DNA from: Acidobacteriota bacterium
GTDB taxonomy: Bacteria; Acidobacteriota; Terriglobia; UBA7540
Assembly: GCA_021780055.1 (NCBI GenBank)
Contig: JAJXZM010000397.1
Location: 1 to 6,271 of the forward strand
Length of the DNA stretch: 6,271 bases
Direction: 5' to 3'
Shown here: positions 2 to 6,248 of the stretch, one piece after another
Numbering within the stretch: position 1 is the stretch's first letter
Layout of the letters: each line of letters begins with the position of its first letter
Notes under the pieces: generated by a model
The model's database searches: none
What the model was told of the DNA's origin: nothing
Seen by the model: the letters and a program-made list of their open reading frames with translations, nothing else
Made by a program: the position numbers and the translations under genes

Positions 2-1087
2 AACTGGTACGCTCTCTACGGCGCGCAGGACAAGGTCGGTCTTATGGTGGGGCCAGGGTCGCACGGCATGCCTCTGGCGGCGCGCGAAGCCGTGTATCTG
101 TGGATGATTCGCTACCTGAAAAACGGGCAAGGCGATTACCACGAACAGCCGGTCGAGATGTACACAAACCACCAGTTGCAGGTAACGGCCAGCGGCAATG
201 TTGCGGATGAGCCCGGTAGCAGAAAACTCTATCAGGTGCTTCGCGCTGACTTTAACGCACGAAGAAGGCCCGGGACGCTCCCTGAATTGTTGGCGAAGCT
301 GCGGCAACTCAAGATTCCCACCGACCGGTCTGCGCCGAAGGTCAAAATTCTGGATCAATCGAGCGATGCCGCCGGACGAAAAGAGCACATCAAATTTGAG
401 AGTTCACCAGGGATATGGCTCAACGCCGCATTGCATATTCCGTCTGCTCCGGGAAAGAAACCCGCCGTGCTGGTGGTGAAGGGCGGCAACATGTTTGGGC
501 TGATGTCCACAGCCACCATCGCGGAACACATGGCAAAGTCTGGCTGCGTGGTGCTGGAGATGGAGCCTCAACGGTCTCAGATGGAAGTCCACGAGGGGCC
601 GTTTGCCGGCGACTACGTCACTGACGTGCAGGCCAACCTGATCGGCCTTAACCTGCCTGCCATGCGGGCGCACGACATCCTGCGCGGGGTTGATCTGCTG
701 GCGGCCCGTTCTGACGTCGACCCGAATTCGATTCGGGCTGCCGCCCGGGGTGTAAGCGGCATCTGGCTGTTGCTCGCGGCCGCGGCTGACCCGCGGATTG
801 GCAAGGTCTGGATTGACAGGACACCTTACAGCCTGCGCTCGGCGTTGGACAACTCCATGGCGGCCGACCTGTGGGATGCGGCCATCCCCGGTTTTGCCCT
901 CCATTGGGACCTGAATGACCTGGTAAAAGCCATGGGCAATCGGCCCGTGATGTGGACCGACCCGACAAACTGGTTGCGCCGCGTTGTCACACTGGGGCCT
1001 TCTTATCAGTACCGATATGTTCTCGGCGACACGACGGATTTGGCCCAGGCGCAGGATGACACGTACATCAAGGAACTGCTCAAGTAG
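2..1087 (+). CDS. Tandem alpha/beta hydrolase (acetyl-xylan-esterase-like), C-terminal part; 5' end outside window
   Basis: The reading frame is open from base 2 and the first visible ATG (44) lies inside a conserved motif, so the gene starts upstream of the window; 361 residues are visible. Numbering from the first visible codon, residues 1-22 end the first hydrolase domain with GPGSHG, the usual setting of the catalytic His (H21). A linker follows, carrying the YLKNG, HEQPV and RRPGT segments that I associate with two-domain acetyl-xylan-esterase-like proteins. Residues about 115-361 form a second alpha/beta hydrolase fold (VLVVKGG strand at about 156-162, DVDPNSIRA before the nucleophile elbow). 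The elbow reads ARGVSGIWLL (S252), not a clean GxSxG, and the C-terminal part has WTDPTNW with no obvious catalytic His, so this half looks catalytically degenerate. The family acts on esters, often acetylated sugars; the exact substrate is unknown. It converges with the minus-strand operon. The fold is confident, the substrate is not. Confidence 0.82.
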   Translation, partial: NWYALYGAQDKVGLMVGPGSHGMPLAAREAVYLWMIRYLKNGQGDYHEQPVEMYTNHQLQVTASGNVADEPGSRKLYQVLRADFNARRRPGTLPELLAKLRQLKIPTDRSAPKVKILDQSSDAAGRKEHIKFESSPGIWLNAALHIPSAPGKKPAVLVVKGGNMFGLMSTATIAEHMAKSGCVVLEMEPQRSQMEVHEGPFAGDYVTDVQANLIGLNLPAMRAHDILRGVDLLAARSDVDPNSIRAAARGVSGIWLLLAAAADPRIGKVWIDRTPYSLRSALDNSMAADLWDAAIPGFALHWDLNDLVKAMGNRPVMWTDPTNWLRRVVTLGPSYQYRYVLGDTTDLAQAQDDTYIKELLK

Positions 1088-1159: not shown

Positions 1160-1939
1160 CTACGATAGACCGTCGAGAAGTTTTCTGGCGTTCACTTCGG
1201 TAATCGCCAATTCCCGATCATGCGGAAGGCCTGCAGACCTGACTTTCAGCAGCGCAGACTCAAAATAGAAAAACGGATAATGCGAACCAAAGACAACACG
1301 TGAGGATGACGTTTCGGCGATCAGACGTTCAAGCCCGCCTACCCGTTCGTTCATGGCAATATCGAAGCAGACGTTGCCGGCTTCCTTGATCTTTTGGATA
1401 TGGGGCGTAACTGCTCCGCCCCAATAGCCCGCGTTAAGAAGGACCAGCCGTAATTTCTTAAGCTGCGACAGCAGATCGGACAGTGGAGTGGGGTCAACCG
1501 GCGGCACCTGCATCAGCGGGAATTGTGTGCGCGGGTCTTCCATGGAAAGCGCAATCTGAACCAGCAAGCCGCGGCTTCCCGCCACTTGAATGAGCCTGGC
1601 AAACGCGAGATCTGCGAGAGTGTAGCCGTGGTAATTCGGGTGTAAGCGAATTCCCGGCATGTGATGAACTTCGTGGCATCGGCGCAGATCTTCCTCCCAA
1701 TCCGGCAGCTTGGGATTGACGCAACCGAATGGAACCAGAAAATTCCGCCCGTGCTCGCGGCAGGCGGCAGCGAGCCTCGCATTCACGCCGGCAACATCGC
1801 GGCAGAACAAGCCCTCAAAGCTGGCAGCCCAGGCCTGCGTCACTCCCTTCTTGCGGAGGCGCGCGACAAGTTCCGCCGGGTCGTCCCCAATAAGGCGCCG
1901 GAATGGCCAGCGAAACACGCTGACGTTGGTGTCAATCAT
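1160..1939 (-). CDS. Amidohydrolase-2-like TIM-barrel protein lacking the metal ligands
   Basis: This 259-residue protein resembles the PF04909-type amidohydrolase fold. It has a first strand MIDTNVS, a GIRLHPNYHGY segment (96-106), LLVQIALSMEDPR (125-137), a VVFGSHYPFFYFESALLK end motif (215-232) and a C-terminal NARKLL helix. Every place where the superfamily keeps a metal ligand is changed. The HxH of strand 1 is N5/S7, the strand-5 His is Q128, the usual HxGG reads NAGYWGG (169-175), and the GSD aspartate is H220. It therefore probably does not bind metal in the usual way; I recall the N-x-S and FGS-x-PFFYFES signatures as features of a bacterial subfamily, so this is not decay. There is no signal peptide, and no ATG, GTG or TTG lies in frame between this ATG and the preceding stop at 2027-2029. 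It overlaps the upstream amidohydrolase by ATGA. It may be a pseudoenzyme subunit or regulator; the function is unknown. Confidence 0.85.
   Translation of the reverse strand: MIDTNVSVFRWPFRRLIGDDPAELVARLRKKGVTQAWAASFEGLFCRDVAGVNARLAAACREHGRNFLVPFGCVNPKLPDWEEDLRRCHEVHHMPGIRLHPNYHGYTLADLAFARLIQVAGSRGLLVQIALSMEDPRTQFPLMQVPPVDPTPLSDLLSQLKKLRLVLLNAGYWGGAVTPHIQKIKEAGNVCFDIAMNERVGGLERLIAETSSSRVVFGSHYPFFYFESALLKVRSAGLPHDRELAITEVNARKLLDGLS
1936..1939 (-). promoter_or_regulatory. ATGA stop/start overlap (translational coupling)
   Basis: On the minus strand the TGA that ends the Tat amidohydrolase and the ATG that starts the next amidohydrolase share bases as ATGA. Only a weak purine stretch (AAAGG, about 9 nt before the ATG) could serve as a ribosome binding site, so the downstream gene is probably translated by re-initiating ribosomes. 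This would tie the amounts of the two paralogues together. Confidence 0.7.
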
Positions 1940-2838
1940 GACTTCAGGCCTTTCGCCTCGAGGCTGGGCCGCAGCAGGCGGCGGAGGTTTCCACCCAGAA
2001 TCAGTTCCTTCGCCGAGCCGGGAATTTCAGCGCCGACGACCTTGGCGACCTGAGACGCGAAGCTGCGCCCTCCGGCGTCGCTCCCGTAAACAATGCGCTC
2101 TGCCCCCAACTCGCGGACTGCCATTTCGACGAAGCCGGAAGTCGGGTCTGAGCCCGCAATTCCGGCACAGACGTTTTTCGCATCGCGAATGGCGCGAATG
2201 CCGAGCTCCCAGTTGCCGCCCGTGTGCCCGCAAACGAACTGGGCCTCGGGGTGGCGCTTTGCGAGTTCGACCAGGTCGTAGGGAGTGGATTCACCCGGCT
2301 CATTGCCGTTAGTTTTGATCCAGGTGTGCTGGAGGATCGGAACTTTTAAAGAGATTGCCCGCTCAACAATCGGGTCGAGCGCCGGTGAATTGCAACGAAC
2401 GTCGGCCTCCAGCTCTCCGACGCTGACCATCGGCCCTTCCCTGACGCAGCGGTCGAATTCCTGAAGGCAGAAGTCAACATTGTCCGGGCACAGATAAACA
2501 GACCCGTACGCCCGATCAGGGAAATGCTGCACAGCGCGCATCACCCGGTCGTTTTCCTCGCGCACCTGCTCCGGGGTCGGGTGCCGGATATATTGATCGT
2601 ATCCCTGCGAGAGAATAATTCGTTCGATCCCAAGCCGGTCCATGTGCCGGACAAGCACCTCCATTCGCGCTTCCGGTGTGTCTCCCGGCACGCCGTCAAG
2701 ATGCGTGTGCATATCCCATATTCTTATGCGACCGGCGGATTCAGGGGCCCCGCCAGGATTCGCAGTGCCAGACAGGCCGCCGGCAGTGGCGACCCCTGCA
2801 ACAAGACTTTTCAGAACTGTACGCCGATCGAGCGTCAT
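1936..2838 (-). CDS. Tat-exported amidohydrolase (PF04909-like TIM-barrel metal-dependent hydrolase)
   Basis: A 300-residue protein with a twin-arginine signal: DRRTVLK at residues 4-10, then a mildly hydrophobic Ala/Gly/Val stretch to about residue 24, so it should be exported folded across the cytoplasmic membrane. The mature part begins with the WDMHTHLDG strand (41-49). Candidate metal and catalytic residues are all present: H44 and H46 (HxH), H171 (ILQHTW), H205 (CGHTGGNWE) and D254 (YGSDAGG). GELEADVR at 141-148 occupies the region of the strand-4 acidic residue. The family includes sugar lactonases and nonoxidative decarboxylases; the substrate cannot be read from the sequence. The gene starts 3 bp after the stop of the PQQ dehydrogenase with only a weak GGA upstream, and overlaps the next amidohydrolase by 4 bp, so all three are probably co-translated. 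Given the context, a periplasmic lactonase acting on the PQQ enzyme's product is a reasonable guess. The fold and export are well supported. Confidence 0.9.
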   Translation of the reverse strand: MTLDRRTVLKSLVAGVATAGGLSGTANPGGAPESAGRIRIWDMHTHLDGVPGDTPEARMEVLVRHMDRLGIERIILSQGYDQYIRHPTPEQVREENDRVMRAVQHFPDRAYGSVYLCPDNVDFCLQEFDRCVREGPMVSVGELEADVRCNSPALDPIVERAISLKVPILQHTWIKTNGNEPGESTPYDLVELAKRHPEAQFVCGHTGGNWELGIRAIRDAKNVCAGIAGSDPTSGFVEMAVRELGAERIVYGSDAGGRSFASQVAKVVGAEIPGSAKELILGGNLRRLLRPSLEAKGLKS

Positions 2839-2841
2839 TTT

Positions 2842-5313
2842 TTAGTATCCGATGTTATGACATTGGCCGCAGGAAACAGTGGCCTTGCGGAGATTGTGGC
2901 AATTGACGCAGCTCATCATAGAAATGTCTTTCACCTGCCGCATCGAATCCATGTTCCGGACCATGCCGTGGCACACCGCGCAGTCCACCTTGGCGGCAAG
3001 GTGCTTCTGATGGCTGAAGAAAACGAAGTCCGGCAGATGATAAACCCGGACCCAGGGAATTCTGCCTCCTGCTTTCTGCAGTCGGGCCAACTTCTGGATG
3101 GCAGGACGGTCCTTCGCTATCGACTGATGGCAGGCCATGCACTGGGTGGCATCGGGAATGCGCATCTGCTTGCCGTCATTCGTCGTCTGATGACAACTGT
3201 CGCAGTTGAGCCCGGCAGTGGCGTGAACCCTGTGACTGAAAGGAAGAGGCTGGGCCGGCGCCGGAGGCTGTGGCGTGATTTCCATGGGTTCGATTCCCTT
3301 GCCTCCCGGGATGACCCCCAGCTCAACGGGCAGCCGTGTCTCGGCTTGCAACTTCGCCTGTGCCGGGTTGGTGTGCCCTTCTGGAAAAAGTGTATAGGCT
3401 GCGATAACCGTGGGAGCGGAAGCACCTGTACTGAAACGCGAACTCGGCCCAACCGCGATCACCACAAATTGCTTCCCGCTTCTTTTTCCCAGATACGTCA
3501 GTGGCGTTGCGTAGCCATTGGCTTCGAGTTTGCTGACCCAAAGCTCCTTCCCCGTCTGGGAGTCAAACGCCCTGAATCGGCGGTCGGCGGTGGCGGCAAT
3601 AAAAACCAGGCCCCCGGCGGTTACAATGGAGCCTCCAAGATTGTAAATGCCGGTCTTGGGAACGCCCTTGGCAGTAAGAGCATCCACGACCCCCAGCGTT
3701 ACGGACCACGCGATCTTTCCCGTATTTAAATCGACAGCATTCATGGTGCCCCAGGGCGGCTGTTGACAGGGATAATGGTTGTCGTCCTCAAAGCGCGCGT
3801 AGGAGCCCCACTTGCTGGTTTTCTCATACGCCTCGGGAGAGCCTTCCGGCTGCTTTTTCATCTGCCCCACTGCTCCGAGGTTGGTGATGTTCGCAAACAT
3901 GGTGCCGGAAGATGGGTCAAAGGAAACGCCGCCCCAGTCGGTTCCTCCCATGGTTCCCGGAATGATCACCGTGGTTTCCAGACCCCAGGGATTGAAAATC
4001 TTCGCCGGCAGAGCCGAGCCGAAATTGTCCAGGCAGTATTTGCGCGACTCGGGCGTGACGGTGGTGATGACATCGCGCGTCACCAGGATTTTGGCCAGCG
4101 GCGGGATGGCAGTGGGGAACGGCTGTGTGGGCGAAGTAGCTTCACCGGGTACCTGGCTTTGTGGGACGGGACGCTCTTCAATCGGGTAGAGCGGCTTGCC
4201 TGTCAGCCGGTTGAACACGAAAACGAGGCCCTCCTTGCCAACCAAAACGACGGCGGGAATCTCCTTCCCGTCGCGATGGATGGTCACCAGCGACGGCTGC
4301 GATCCCACGTCCATGTCCCAGATATCGTGGTGAACCAGCTGATAGGACCAGACCAGTTTGCCGGTATCCGCCTTGACAGCCACCAGCGAGTTGGCAAAGA
4401 GAGTGTTTCCCTTCCGGTCGGCCCCGTAAAAATCGTAGGAAGGCGAGCAAACGGGAAGGAAGACCAGCCCGTTCTGAACGTCAACACTGAGTGGCGGCCA
4501 CGCGTTGACGCCCGAGCGGTCCTGCCAACTGTCGCCCTCCCAGGTGTCGTGTCCGAATTCACCGGGCTGCGGAATGGTGTTGAAAGTCCACACCAGCTTC
4601 CCGGTGCGCACGTTGAAGGCCCGGACGACTCCGCTGTTTCCCTTTGAGGGATACTCCTGCACTTCAGATCCAACAATGATCAGGTCCTTGTAGATGGCCG
4701 GGGGCGACGTCAGGTCATATTGGCGCTTCGGAAATTTCACGATGCCTTCGCGGAGATCAATAGCGCCGTCCTTGCCGAAACCAGCACAGGGCTTGCCGGT
4801 AGATGGGTCCAGCGCGAAAAGACGGGCGTCGGGAGTCGTGTAGAAAACGCGGCTGTCCTCACCATCGCGGCGGCCGTCGCAGGTTTCGGGCGACTTTCCT
4901 TTCCAGTACGTCATGCCACGATTCGGCAGCGGGGTAATCTTGCCGCTTTCTGCTCCGTAAGGGTCGAAGGTCCAGAGCTGCTTGCCCGTCTCGGCATCCA
5001 GAGCGATGGCAAGTCCCGTCTGGGTGGCGAAGTAGAGGGAATCGTCCACCATCAGCGGCGTGCTTTCAAAAGCCTGCAGCCAACTGTTCGGCGTTGTGGG
5101 AACCTCATAGGTCCAGGCTCTCTGCAGCCGCTGCACGTTGGTACGATTGATCTGCGTAAGCGGCGAATACCGCATGGCCCCCGGGTCATGCCCGGTCACC
5201 GGCCAGTCTTGGCCCGCGTCGCCCGTGCCCGCCTGGCCGATTGCGAGGCCACACGCCGCAAGCACCACGATGGGGAGATAAATTCTCAGGACGCGTCTTT
5301 TGAATACCTTCAC
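2842..5313 (-). CDS. PQQ-dependent dehydrogenase fused to a C-terminal pentaheme cytochrome c domain
   Basis: An 823-residue exported quinohaemoprotein. Residues 1-26 are a basic start plus a hydrophobic segment; LAAC (18-21) fits a lipobox, though cleavage near AIGQA is also possible. Residues about 35-645 form a PQQ beta-propeller: the entry motif WPVTGHDPGAMRYSPL (37-52) and at least seven A-x-D/N-x-x-TGK-type blade motifs near 104, 167, 232, 312, 366, 526 and 582. EFGHDTWEGDSWQDRSG (252-268) and VHHDIWDMD (327-335) match membrane glucose dehydrogenase and related enzymes. By spacing, D333 and K360 would correspond to the catalytic Asp and PQQ-contacting Lys of E. coli Gcd (my alignment from memory). 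The adjacent Cys-Cys pair of methanol/ethanol dehydrogenases is absent. Residues about 690-823 carry five CxxCH heme sites. It should oxidise a sugar or alcohol outside the cytoplasm and pass electrons to these hemes. No PQQ synthesis genes are in view. The start is GTG, chosen because a good ribosome binding site and the signal peptide follow from it. Confidence 0.92.
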   Translation of the reverse strand: MKVFKRRVLRIYLPIVVLAACGLAIGQAGTGDAGQDWPVTGHDPGAMRYSPLTQINRTNVQRLQRAWTYEVPTTPNSWLQAFESTPLMVDDSLYFATQTGLAIALDAETGKQLWTFDPYGAESGKITPLPNRGMTYWKGKSPETCDGRRDGEDSRVFYTTPDARLFALDPSTGKPCAGFGKDGAIDLREGIVKFPKRQYDLTSPPAIYKDLIIVGSEVQEYPSKGNSGVVRAFNVRTGKLVWTFNTIPQPGEFGHDTWEGDSWQDRSGVNAWPPLSVDVQNGLVFLPVCSPSYDFYGADRKGNTLFANSLVAVKADTGKLVWSYQLVHHDIWDMDVGSQPSLVTIHRDGKEIPAVVLVGKEGLVFVFNRLTGKPLYPIEERPVPQSQVPGEATSPTQPFPTAIPPLAKILVTRDVITTVTPESRKYCLDNFGSALPAKIFNPWGLETTVIIPGTMGGTDWGGVSFDPSSGTMFANITNLGAVGQMKKQPEGSPEAYEKTSKWGSYARFEDDNHYPCQQPPWGTMNAVDLNTGKIAWSVTLGVVDALTAKGVPKTGIYNLGGSIVTAGGLVFIAATADRRFRAFDSQTGKELWVSKLEANGYATPLTYLGKRSGKQFVVIAVGPSSRFSTGASAPTVIAAYTLFPEGHTNPAQAKLQAETRLPVELGVIPGGKGIEPMEITPQPPAPAQPLPFSHRVHATAGLNCDSCHQTTNDGKQMRIPDATQCMACHQSIAKDRPAIQKLARLQKAGGRIPWVRVYHLPDFVFFSHQKHLAAKVDCAVCHGMVRNMDSMRQVKDISMMSCVNCHNLRKATVSCGQCHNIGY
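2845..3243 (-). other. Pentaheme c-type (cytochrome c3/c7-like) domain at the C-terminus of the PQQ dehydrogenase
   Basis: Residues 691-823 of the preceding protein hold CxxCH at 704-708, 725-729, 778-782, 802-806 and 815-819. Apart from the five motif histidines there are exactly five more His in the domain: H694, H697, H759, H768 and H771. That is enough to give each heme two His ligands, as in class III cytochromes. The block from IPWVRVYH through FFSHQKH to VDCAVCHG looks like the multiheme part of c7-type proteins and of the ActA subunit of alternative complex III (recalled, not searched). It is joined to the propeller by a Pro-rich linker (about 676-691). It is an internal part of the dehydrogenase reading frame, not a separate gene. 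Confidence 0.88.
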
Positions 5314-5450: not shown

Positions 5451-6248
5451 CTATCGGTTACAGAATTCCCGATAGCTCATCAGCTTTATACCACGGATTG
5501 CCACTAATCTTTTGATACGAGGACTGGTGTAGGCAAGCGTTTCGGCCGCACGGAGATTCCCCACACCGAGCGGTTTCACGTCCTTGGGATCAAAGTGAAC
5601 AAGCGCATCGTTCTCAAGCGAAGGATACCCCGGGTGAGCGATGAGCAGGTGCACGCCCGGTTCCAGGCGCTCGAGGATTCCCGCCAATACATTTCCCTTG
5701 TCTTCCGGCGCGGGAGAATAGATTCCGAAGTCCGGAAGTTCGTGTTCGCCCAGGAGACATGAAACCGGAATGCCATAGTCTTTGCCGATGCGTTCGACGA
5801 TCGGCCGGACCCGCGTGTCGTAGGGCATCATGTAATGCGTATCGATGTAGTCGACCCTTACGCCCCTTTTCCTTGCAAGATCAATCTGGGCGCGAAATTC
5901 TTTCTCCAGTTCCGGCATTTGTGGACTGTGTCCCCAGAAATCCGCCGGAGACTGCCAGAGAAATCCATCTTCATCCACAAGGCTCTTGACTCCCGAATAG
6001 GGCAGCACCGGCCTCCAGCGGTATCCTCTCCATTCTCCGATGATCCCCAGGTGGACTCCAAAGCAAAACTCGGGATGTGCGCGGGCCATCTGCGCCGCTT
6101 CCTCAAACCACGGCGCAACCACCAGAATGGCTGCGGATTTAACGAATCCGTCACGAAGGCAGTCGAGGATGGCAAGGTTTCCGGTGTGCGTGTACCCCAT
6201 GTCATCGGCCCGTGTGATAAGAATTATTTCCCTGCCGTCACTTGCCAT
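5451..6248 (-). CDS. ChbG/HpnK-family (YdjC-like) carbohydrate deacetylase
   Basis: A 265-residue cytoplasmic protein (no signal peptide) of the YdjC-like family, whose known members ChbG and HpnK remove acetyl groups from chitooligosaccharides or N-acetylglucosaminyl hopanoids using a divalent metal. The N-terminal strand IILITRADDMGY (8-19) supplies the DD motif. D16, H66 (FGVHLGIIGEW) and H138 (DYIDTHYMMP) fit the metal-binding Asp and two His of the family, and H205 in LLIAHPG is the likely late catalytic His. The EWRGYRWRP stretch (72-80) is also typical. The length is normal and the gene looks intact. The ATG at 6246-6248 has only a weak GAGA about 9 nt upstream. It lies upstream of and co-oriented with the PQQ operon but is separated by 137 bp, so it may be a separate transcript. 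The fold and general reaction are well supported; the substrate is not known. Confidence 0.9.
   Translation of the reverse strand: MASDGREIILITRADDMGYTHTGNLAILDCLRDGFVKSAAILVVAPWFEEAAQMARAHPEFCFGVHLGIIGEWRGYRWRPVLPYSGVKSLVDEDGFLWQSPADFWGHSPQMPELEKEFRAQIDLARKRGVRVDYIDTHYMMPYDTRVRPIVERIGKDYGIPVSCLLGEHELPDFGIYSPAPEDKGNVLAGILERLEPGVHLLIAHPGYPSLENDALVHFDPKDVKPLGVGNLRAAETLAYTSPRIKRLVAIRGIKLMSYREFCNR

Follow-up and report, generated by a model that had tools for sequence, protein, structure and literature searches.

A PQQ dehydrogenase fused to an ActA/QrcA-family pentaheme domain in Acidobacteria and its proposed cytochrome-linked electron output

Introduction

The membrane PQQ glucose/quinate dehydrogenases are described by the model TIGR03074, a group of the E. 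coli Gcd type. Quinohemoprotein dehydrogenases with built-in hemes are also known already. The type III alcohol dehydrogenases of acetic acid bacteria use a quinone as electron acceptor. The enzyme of this type in PDB entry 8gy2 works via a multiheme chain, which is located on a separate subunit. Bacterial FAD glucose dehydrogenase complexes likewise combine a dehydrogenase with a dedicated multiheme carrier, namely a GMC-type catalytic flavin subunit, a small subunit and a multiheme cytochrome c. In type II quinohemoprotein alcohol dehydrogenases (1kv9, 1yiq and 1kb0), propeller, linker and a C-terminal domain with one class I heme are found in one chain. Pentaheme wires of a different family occur as ActA in alternative complex III (ACIII; 8k9e, 6f0k, 6lod and 6btm), where they have their own N-terminal membrane helix, and as QrcA in the menaquinone reductase complex (NF041781).

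The protein described here shares the single-chain arrangement with the type II enzymes and the multiheme chain with the type III enzyme and the FAD complexes, but it carries five hemes of another family in one polypeptide together with a PQQ domain instead of a flavin. In the open-licence literature searched, a scope outside which subscription papers mostly fall, none of the papers listed deals with a fusion of PQQ and pentaheme domains, the words “pqq” and “pentaheme” co-occur in no paper, and an ActA/QrcA-family wire in a quinohemoprotein dehydrogenase was not found described.

Results

The fused frame

The window, by which we mean the whole analysed stretch of 6,271 nucleotides of acidobacterial DNA, had been predicted from its letters to contain one uninterrupted frame with a PQQ propeller followed by five CxxCH sites (residues 704-819), without a strand being given. 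This arrangement was confirmed by a PF01011 match over residues 37-617 with 677.2 bits (cut-off 26.7) and by heme motifs beginning at residues 704, 725, 778, 802 and 815. The frame is located on the minus strand; the plus-strand reading of 2842-5313 was rejected, its translation holding two stops. The features are:

2842..5313, minus strand: fused gene for a PQQ dehydrogenase with an ActA/QrcA-family pentaheme domain, 823 amino acids, GTG start
5227..5313, minus strand: predicted signal peptide, residues about 1-29, with helix 4-26 in the structure model
3463..5205, minus strand: PQQ beta-propeller, residues 37-617, by Pfam PF01011, with site residues by homology
3253..3387, minus strand: linker, residues 643-687, weakly conserved, with low model confidence at 661-670
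2857..3252, minus strand: pentaheme domain of the ActA/QrcA family, residues 688-819, by sequence and fold
3223..3234, minus strand: candidate distal heme ligands H694 and H697 (HRVH), invariant in 89/89 rows
3190..3204, minus strand: heme motif 1, CDSCH, residues 704-708, by sequence
3127..3141, minus strand: heme motif 2, CMACH, residues 725-729, by sequence
3001..3012, minus strand: candidate distal heme ligands H768 and H771 (HQKH), invariant in 89/89 rows
2968..2982, minus strand: heme motif 3, CAVCH, residues 778-782, by sequence
2917..2919, minus strand: candidate Met ligand M799 of a His/Met heme, invariant in 89/89 rows
2896..2910, minus strand: heme motif 4, CVNCH, residues 802-806, by sequence
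2857..2871, minus strand: heme motif 5, CGQCH, residues 815-819, by sequence, the last His being 819

Attachment of c-type hemes requires export, and the modelled hydrophobic helix at residues 4-26 fits export of the fused protein. Lipid anchoring is uncertain because a strict lipobox pattern is present in just 3 of 65 full N-termini, the window included, and a loose pattern in 30 of 65.

Propeller lineage and PQQ site

The best NCBIfam model for the propeller is TIGR03074 (glucose/quinate/shikimate group), which matched with 530.1 bits over profile positions 152-781 of 783 and thus below its cut-off of 832.65 bits. Because the match starts at profile position 152, the N-terminal membrane part of this group is missing; the structure model shows a single N-terminal helix. 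The type II alcohol dehydrogenase model TIGR03075 also remained below its cut-off (258.7 of 480.05 bits). The structures 1kv9, 1yiq and 1kb0 are among the best whole-protein PDB matches, and in the alignments the adjacent Cys-Cys of 1kv9 and 1yiq is absent from the fused protein.

The residues assigned to the PQQ site are R132, E220, D333, K360 and W460, with D333 as the catalytic Asp by homology. Scored over 89 fused rows with gaps excluded, R132 and an E or D at position 220 are each kept in 84/84 rows, D333 in 87/87, and K360 and W460 in 89/89. Two membrane enzymes have identical letters at the positions of R132, D333, K360 and W460, and the catalytic Asp and Lys together with the conserved Cys pair C427/C516 link the protein to the TIGR03074 lineage, from which it differs in the absent membrane domain, the sub-threshold score and the five C-terminal c-type hemes.

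The propeller could in principle be without PQQ and serve another role, as in the “Acido-empty” quinoprotein group A of Acidobacteria (TIGR04528). A match to this model (212.9 bits) and the finding of PqqE above cut-off in just 4 of 13 fused genomes would agree with such a role. However, the score is far under the curated cut-off of 650, and the R, E/D, D, K and W of the PQQ site are kept in all non-gapped rows, which makes an empty propeller very unlikely. Incomplete drafts or uptake of PQQ may account for the cofactor supply in the remaining fused genomes, though one survey detected the importer PqqU, within Acidobacteria, in the class Vicinamibacteria only (PMC12124388).

Family, fold and ligands of the pentaheme tail

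The tail matches the Pfam heme families PF14522 and PF14537, and the original prediction had called it c3/c7-like. In the full-length structure model the confidence of the tail was moderate only, and the whole-protein fold search was uninformative because the propeller fills the match list; hence the tail was modelled separately. The tail-alone model has the ActA fold, after which the c3/c7 assignment from the Pfam matches was dropped. We place the tail in the ActA/QrcA family by sequence and with ActA by fold search. The best curated model is QrcA (NF041781) with 76.8 bits against an equivalog cut-off of 180, and since no QrcA structure was among the fold matches, the fold cannot separate ActA from QrcA. 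Matches to the class I cytochrome c families PF00034 and PF13442 are absent in the fused protein. The interpretation given with the original prediction is supported in part; the module is of the ActA/QrcA family and not c3/c7. In contrast to ActA, it is fused to a PQQ enzyme and has no membrane helix of its own, and the fusion together with the low score also distinguishes it from QrcA.

The matching set of heme ligands is invariant in the 89 fused rows and in all 36 rows of alignment A2, and M799 is aligned to a Met of the ActA chains. Four bis-His hemes and one His/Met heme are probable from these alignments.

Outside the fused group, the best blastp matches of the tail were pentahemes of split PQQ pairs (145 bits), followed by GMC-linked (133), molybdopterin-linked (122) and host ActA proteins (99). 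The tail is thus nearer to pentahemes beside QrcB-like proteins than to the ActA of its hosts, and for this reason the known direction of electron flow in ACIII is not a given for the tail. Twelve ActA-like genes were read from fused genomes (L213-L224), eleven with five CxxCH and one with four. In these eleven the CxxCH motifs are spaced 21-53-24 and then 47-63 residues, whereas the last spacing of the tail is 13. A pentaheme tree of 85 rows, built on 134 columns and with many weak forks, puts the eleven host ActA proteins into a clade of their own (100/99), with the tail and the compact 13-residue pentahemes outside. The dehydrogenase-linked pentahemes (fused, split PQQ, GMC and cytochrome-fused; 62 rows) group together (93/99), apart from the pentahemes of molybdopterin-type neighbours. 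Because the host ActA genes form a separate clade, we withdrew the idea that the tail is the ACIII wire itself; on the sequence evidence it belongs to a sister branch and is not derived from the present-day ACIII of the host.

Distribution of the fused family

With residues 655-823 as the query, a protein search found 80 tail relatives out of 239 candidates, and 76 of the 80 have a PQQ domain with five CxxCH. The tail of one of them (P0001) is 100% identical to that of the window, with CxxCH at the same places, and 71 of 77 sequences, counting that of the window, share the spacing 21-53-24-13. Since the fused proteins come from several sources, some on contigs of 240-305 kb, they are very unlikely to result from faulty assembly. 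All three fused proteins with an organism name belong to Acidobacteria or Terriglobia. Four proteins of 637-639 amino acids (P0073, P0075-P0077) have class I cytochrome domains joined to the same pentaheme tail, with eight CxxCH in total.

Among 399 genomes sampled from one bacterial class, 22 matched residues 557-823 at 1e-46, 13 of them with an uninterrupted frame and nine with a stop-interrupted match only; three of the 13 frames are cut by contig or frame ends, and G447 has both kinds. Together with the 76 tail relatives and their shared spacing, the 13 open frames show that the arrangement is more than a chance event. Three relatives from outside Acidobacteria served to choose further phyla, in which no PQQ-pentaheme match was obtained at E 1e-40 (0/249, 0/387 and 0/392 genomes); these scans lacked a positive control and scored a small number of candidates in each genome, and parts encoded as separate genes would escape the threshold. 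Among the matches listed for 396 genomes sampled across the phylum around L001, none spans the propeller end and the tail.

Fused and split pairs

In a genome scan, the match reached the tail at eight acidobacterial loci (L001-L004, L008, L009, L012 and L027), which we expected to be fused. In all eight, propeller and pentaheme are separate genes instead, adjacent or overlapping, and in several the small pentaheme gene has its own hydrophobic start. In a propeller tree of 42 rows the fused forms stand at three places among split ones, and they form one group in 0% of 200 bootstrap trees. A single fusion event was rejected for the propellers (AU test, p 4.6e-5 against one fused clade), as was a single clade of all pentaheme-partnered propellers (p 0.007). 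By their tails, P0070/L173 and the window's clade fall together in one clade (100/96 and 100/97 in trees of 135 and 134 columns), in conflict with the propeller tree, so that an exchange of tails is possible. That joining or splitting has occurred repeatedly suggests a propeller-pentaheme pair which works as a unit.

Some related propellers differ in their hemes. Four acidobacterial ones (L089 1480-3600, L091 1061-3248, L092 1183-3312 and L102 1234-3396) end in a small domain with CX3CH (CGTGCH, CGKQCH, CGVGCH and CGQQCH, respectively). We regard CX3CH in place of CxxCH as an unusual heme-attachment variant in a cytochrome-like domain. Near fused genes, frames with two CxxCH that resemble PQQ proteins were seen at L167 251-2587, L168 1130-2806, L172 4597-7146 and L173 2-2245; the frame at L172, the only one scanned, matches both class I cytochrome and PQQ families of Pfam. 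The relatives at L022, L023, L025, L026, L028, L087 and L105 have a single CxxCH and are longer in their C-terminal half, with the CxxCH of L087 inside the propeller sequence. We interpret these one-CxxCH relatives as other ways of adding heme to the same enzyme lineage.

Other partners of the pentaheme branch

Some stand-alone pentahemes of the phylum are adjoined by GMC oxidoreductases, which Pfam confirmed in four of four loci tested (L180, L114, L138 and L130); L180 also encodes subunit 3 of gluconate 2-dehydrogenase (Gluconate_2-dh3). At L180 (2984-5651) and at the other three loci, the GMC protein and the pentaheme of the same branch look as if the latter stood in for the multiheme subunit that FAD dehydrogenases usually have. 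Molybdopterin-type proteins beside pentahemes were QrcB-like in four of four loci tested (L125, L133, L136 and L137), with QrcB as the best model and scores below its cut-off. The whole ligand pattern is present in 12/12 GMC-linked, 10/10 molybdopterin-linked and 27/28 PQQ-linked pentahemes, in a set that includes near copies and whose partner labels rest on simple motifs found by script. Eight of the ten molybdopterin-linked pentahemes with the full pattern have the compact last spacing of 13 residues.

That the same tail type is combined with unrelated partners, and in four proteins with class I cytochrome domains, would be expected if it shuttled or stored electrons from another donor, with the propeller as a docking platform only. 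We consider this hardly probable, given the conserved catalytic Asp and Lys and the repeated pairing of propeller and pentaheme in fused or adjacent genes.

Gene neighbourhood

The fused gene is followed by genes for putative hydrolytic enzymes:

1936..2838, minus strand: amidohydrolase (PF04909) with a Tat-like N-terminus, starting 3 bases past the stop codon of the fused gene
1160..1939, minus strand: second amidohydrolase (PF04909), sharing 4 bases with the first
2..1087, plus strand: partial hydrolase, cut by the window edge, a fragment without Pfam match

Both amidohydrolases and the hydrolase recur beside other fused genes at L164, L167 (in different order), L170 and L171, four of the 12 genome loci compared, some of which have short flanks; L165 has the hydrolase without amidohydrolases. 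Longer relatives of the hydrolase near other fused genes match AXE1 (acetyl xylan esterase, PF05448), which hints at substrates derived from plant polymers for the fused enzyme. A role of the amidohydrolases as lactonases for an aldose dehydrogenase was unsupported: the first has weak PDB matches (predicted amidohydrolase, 0.011; ACMSD, 0.022-0.028; gamma-resorcylate decarboxylase, 0.092) and the second has none. Upstream of the fused gene, positions 5451-6248 encode a YdjC-like deacetylase-type protein (PF04794), for which no blastp match was found among the frames of 20 other loci compared. Unlike in ACIII, profiles detected no ActB-F genes among the five window proteins scanned.

Respiratory setting of the hosts

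The fused protein of G435, the nearest genome in the comparison, is 87% identical to that of the window. This genome encodes, in a row, an ActA with five CxxCH, ActB, NrfD, ActD (PF11821), a cytochrome c, a frame of 383 amino acids that stands where ActF would be and matches no Pfam family, SCO1, COX2 and COX1. Its ActB matches solved ActB chains at E 0, and its COX2 carries a cytochrome domain. Of 12 fused genomes compared, five have an ActA-like gene on the contig of COX1, at a distance of 9.9-10.7 kb. The heme-copper oxidase subunit COX1 exceeds its cut-off in 11 of the 13 fused genomes and an MtrB_PioB porin in three, strongly in G720.

These counts bear on where the electrons go. The exit through a multiheme chain, as originally predicted, would fit the five conserved heme sites and the ActA fold. 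The extracellular acceptor offered with it as an alternative, in which the pentaheme would pass electrons to an outer-membrane conduit and on to a mineral or a partner cell, would suit an exported protein with a multiheme tail and the three genomes with a porin. In the other ten, drafts that can miss genes, no porin is above cut-off, and none was detected among the five window proteins scanned; the tail folds like the wire of ACIII, and that wire serves an oxidase. We therefore regard extracellular transfer as quite improbable, and aerobic, cytochrome-linked use is likelier in view of the ACIII-oxidase cluster of G435, the frequent COX1 and the rare porin.

Free PQQ has a potential of about +90 mV, and menaquinone is presumably the quinone of Acidobacteria. 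For menaquinol, one paper gives -70 mV (PMC5928083). If these values and the use of menaquinone hold, menaquinol is below PQQ, so that reduction of the quinone would be uphill and an output through heme a sensible replacement. This also argues against a tail that acts as QrcA and feeds electrons into menaquinone. Such a function is suggested by the best curated tail model and by the QrcB-adjacent pentahemes of the phylum, which are close kin with the same last spacing of 13 residues. However, the QrcB-like partners were below the model cut-off in the four loci tested, and G435 has the ACIII-oxidase cluster; we judge electron entry into menaquinone to be improbable.

Discussion

We propose that the fused protein is an exported quinohemoprotein dehydrogenase with a cytochrome-linked output that bypasses the menaquinone pool and ACIII, and we assign a probability of roughly 0.7 to this explanation as a whole. 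In this proposal it belongs to the membrane glucose/quinate dehydrogenase lineage, lacks the membrane part and carries a pentaheme of the ActA/QrcA family at its C-terminus. We infer that PQQ and hemes are loaded, that the periplasmic PQQ site oxidises a substrate which is probably a sugar, a polyol or a related alcohol, and that the two electrons pass from PQQ to heme and exit singly via the linker-tethered pentaheme domain. The acceptor would be a periplasmic cytochrome c or the cytochrome domain of a caa3-type oxidase. With menaquinone as the presumed host quinone, both its pool and ACIII would be bypassed.

More tentatively, Acidobacteria might keep a dedicated branch of the ActA/QrcA family as a transferable output for periplasmic dehydrogenases, joined repeatedly to PQQ enzymes and encoded as separate genes with FAD/GMC enzymes. 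Through it these enzymes would dock to the acceptors of ACIII itself, ActE or the cytochrome domain of caa3, and a dehydrogenase-oxidase chain without quinone would result. If true, such a module would explain how a glucose dehydrogenase lineage that in other hosts needs ubiquinone can work in a host with low-potential menaquinone. In the explanation proposed for the fused protein, a heme wire from a family of respiratory complexes serves as portable output on an oxidative enzyme, and PQQ combined with five output hemes in a single chain would be of interest for wiring enzymes to electrodes. If the bypass exists, the fusion makes sense energetically: Acidobacteria would oxidise substrates outside the cytoplasm and deliver the electrons to oxygen past the quinone pool and ACIII.
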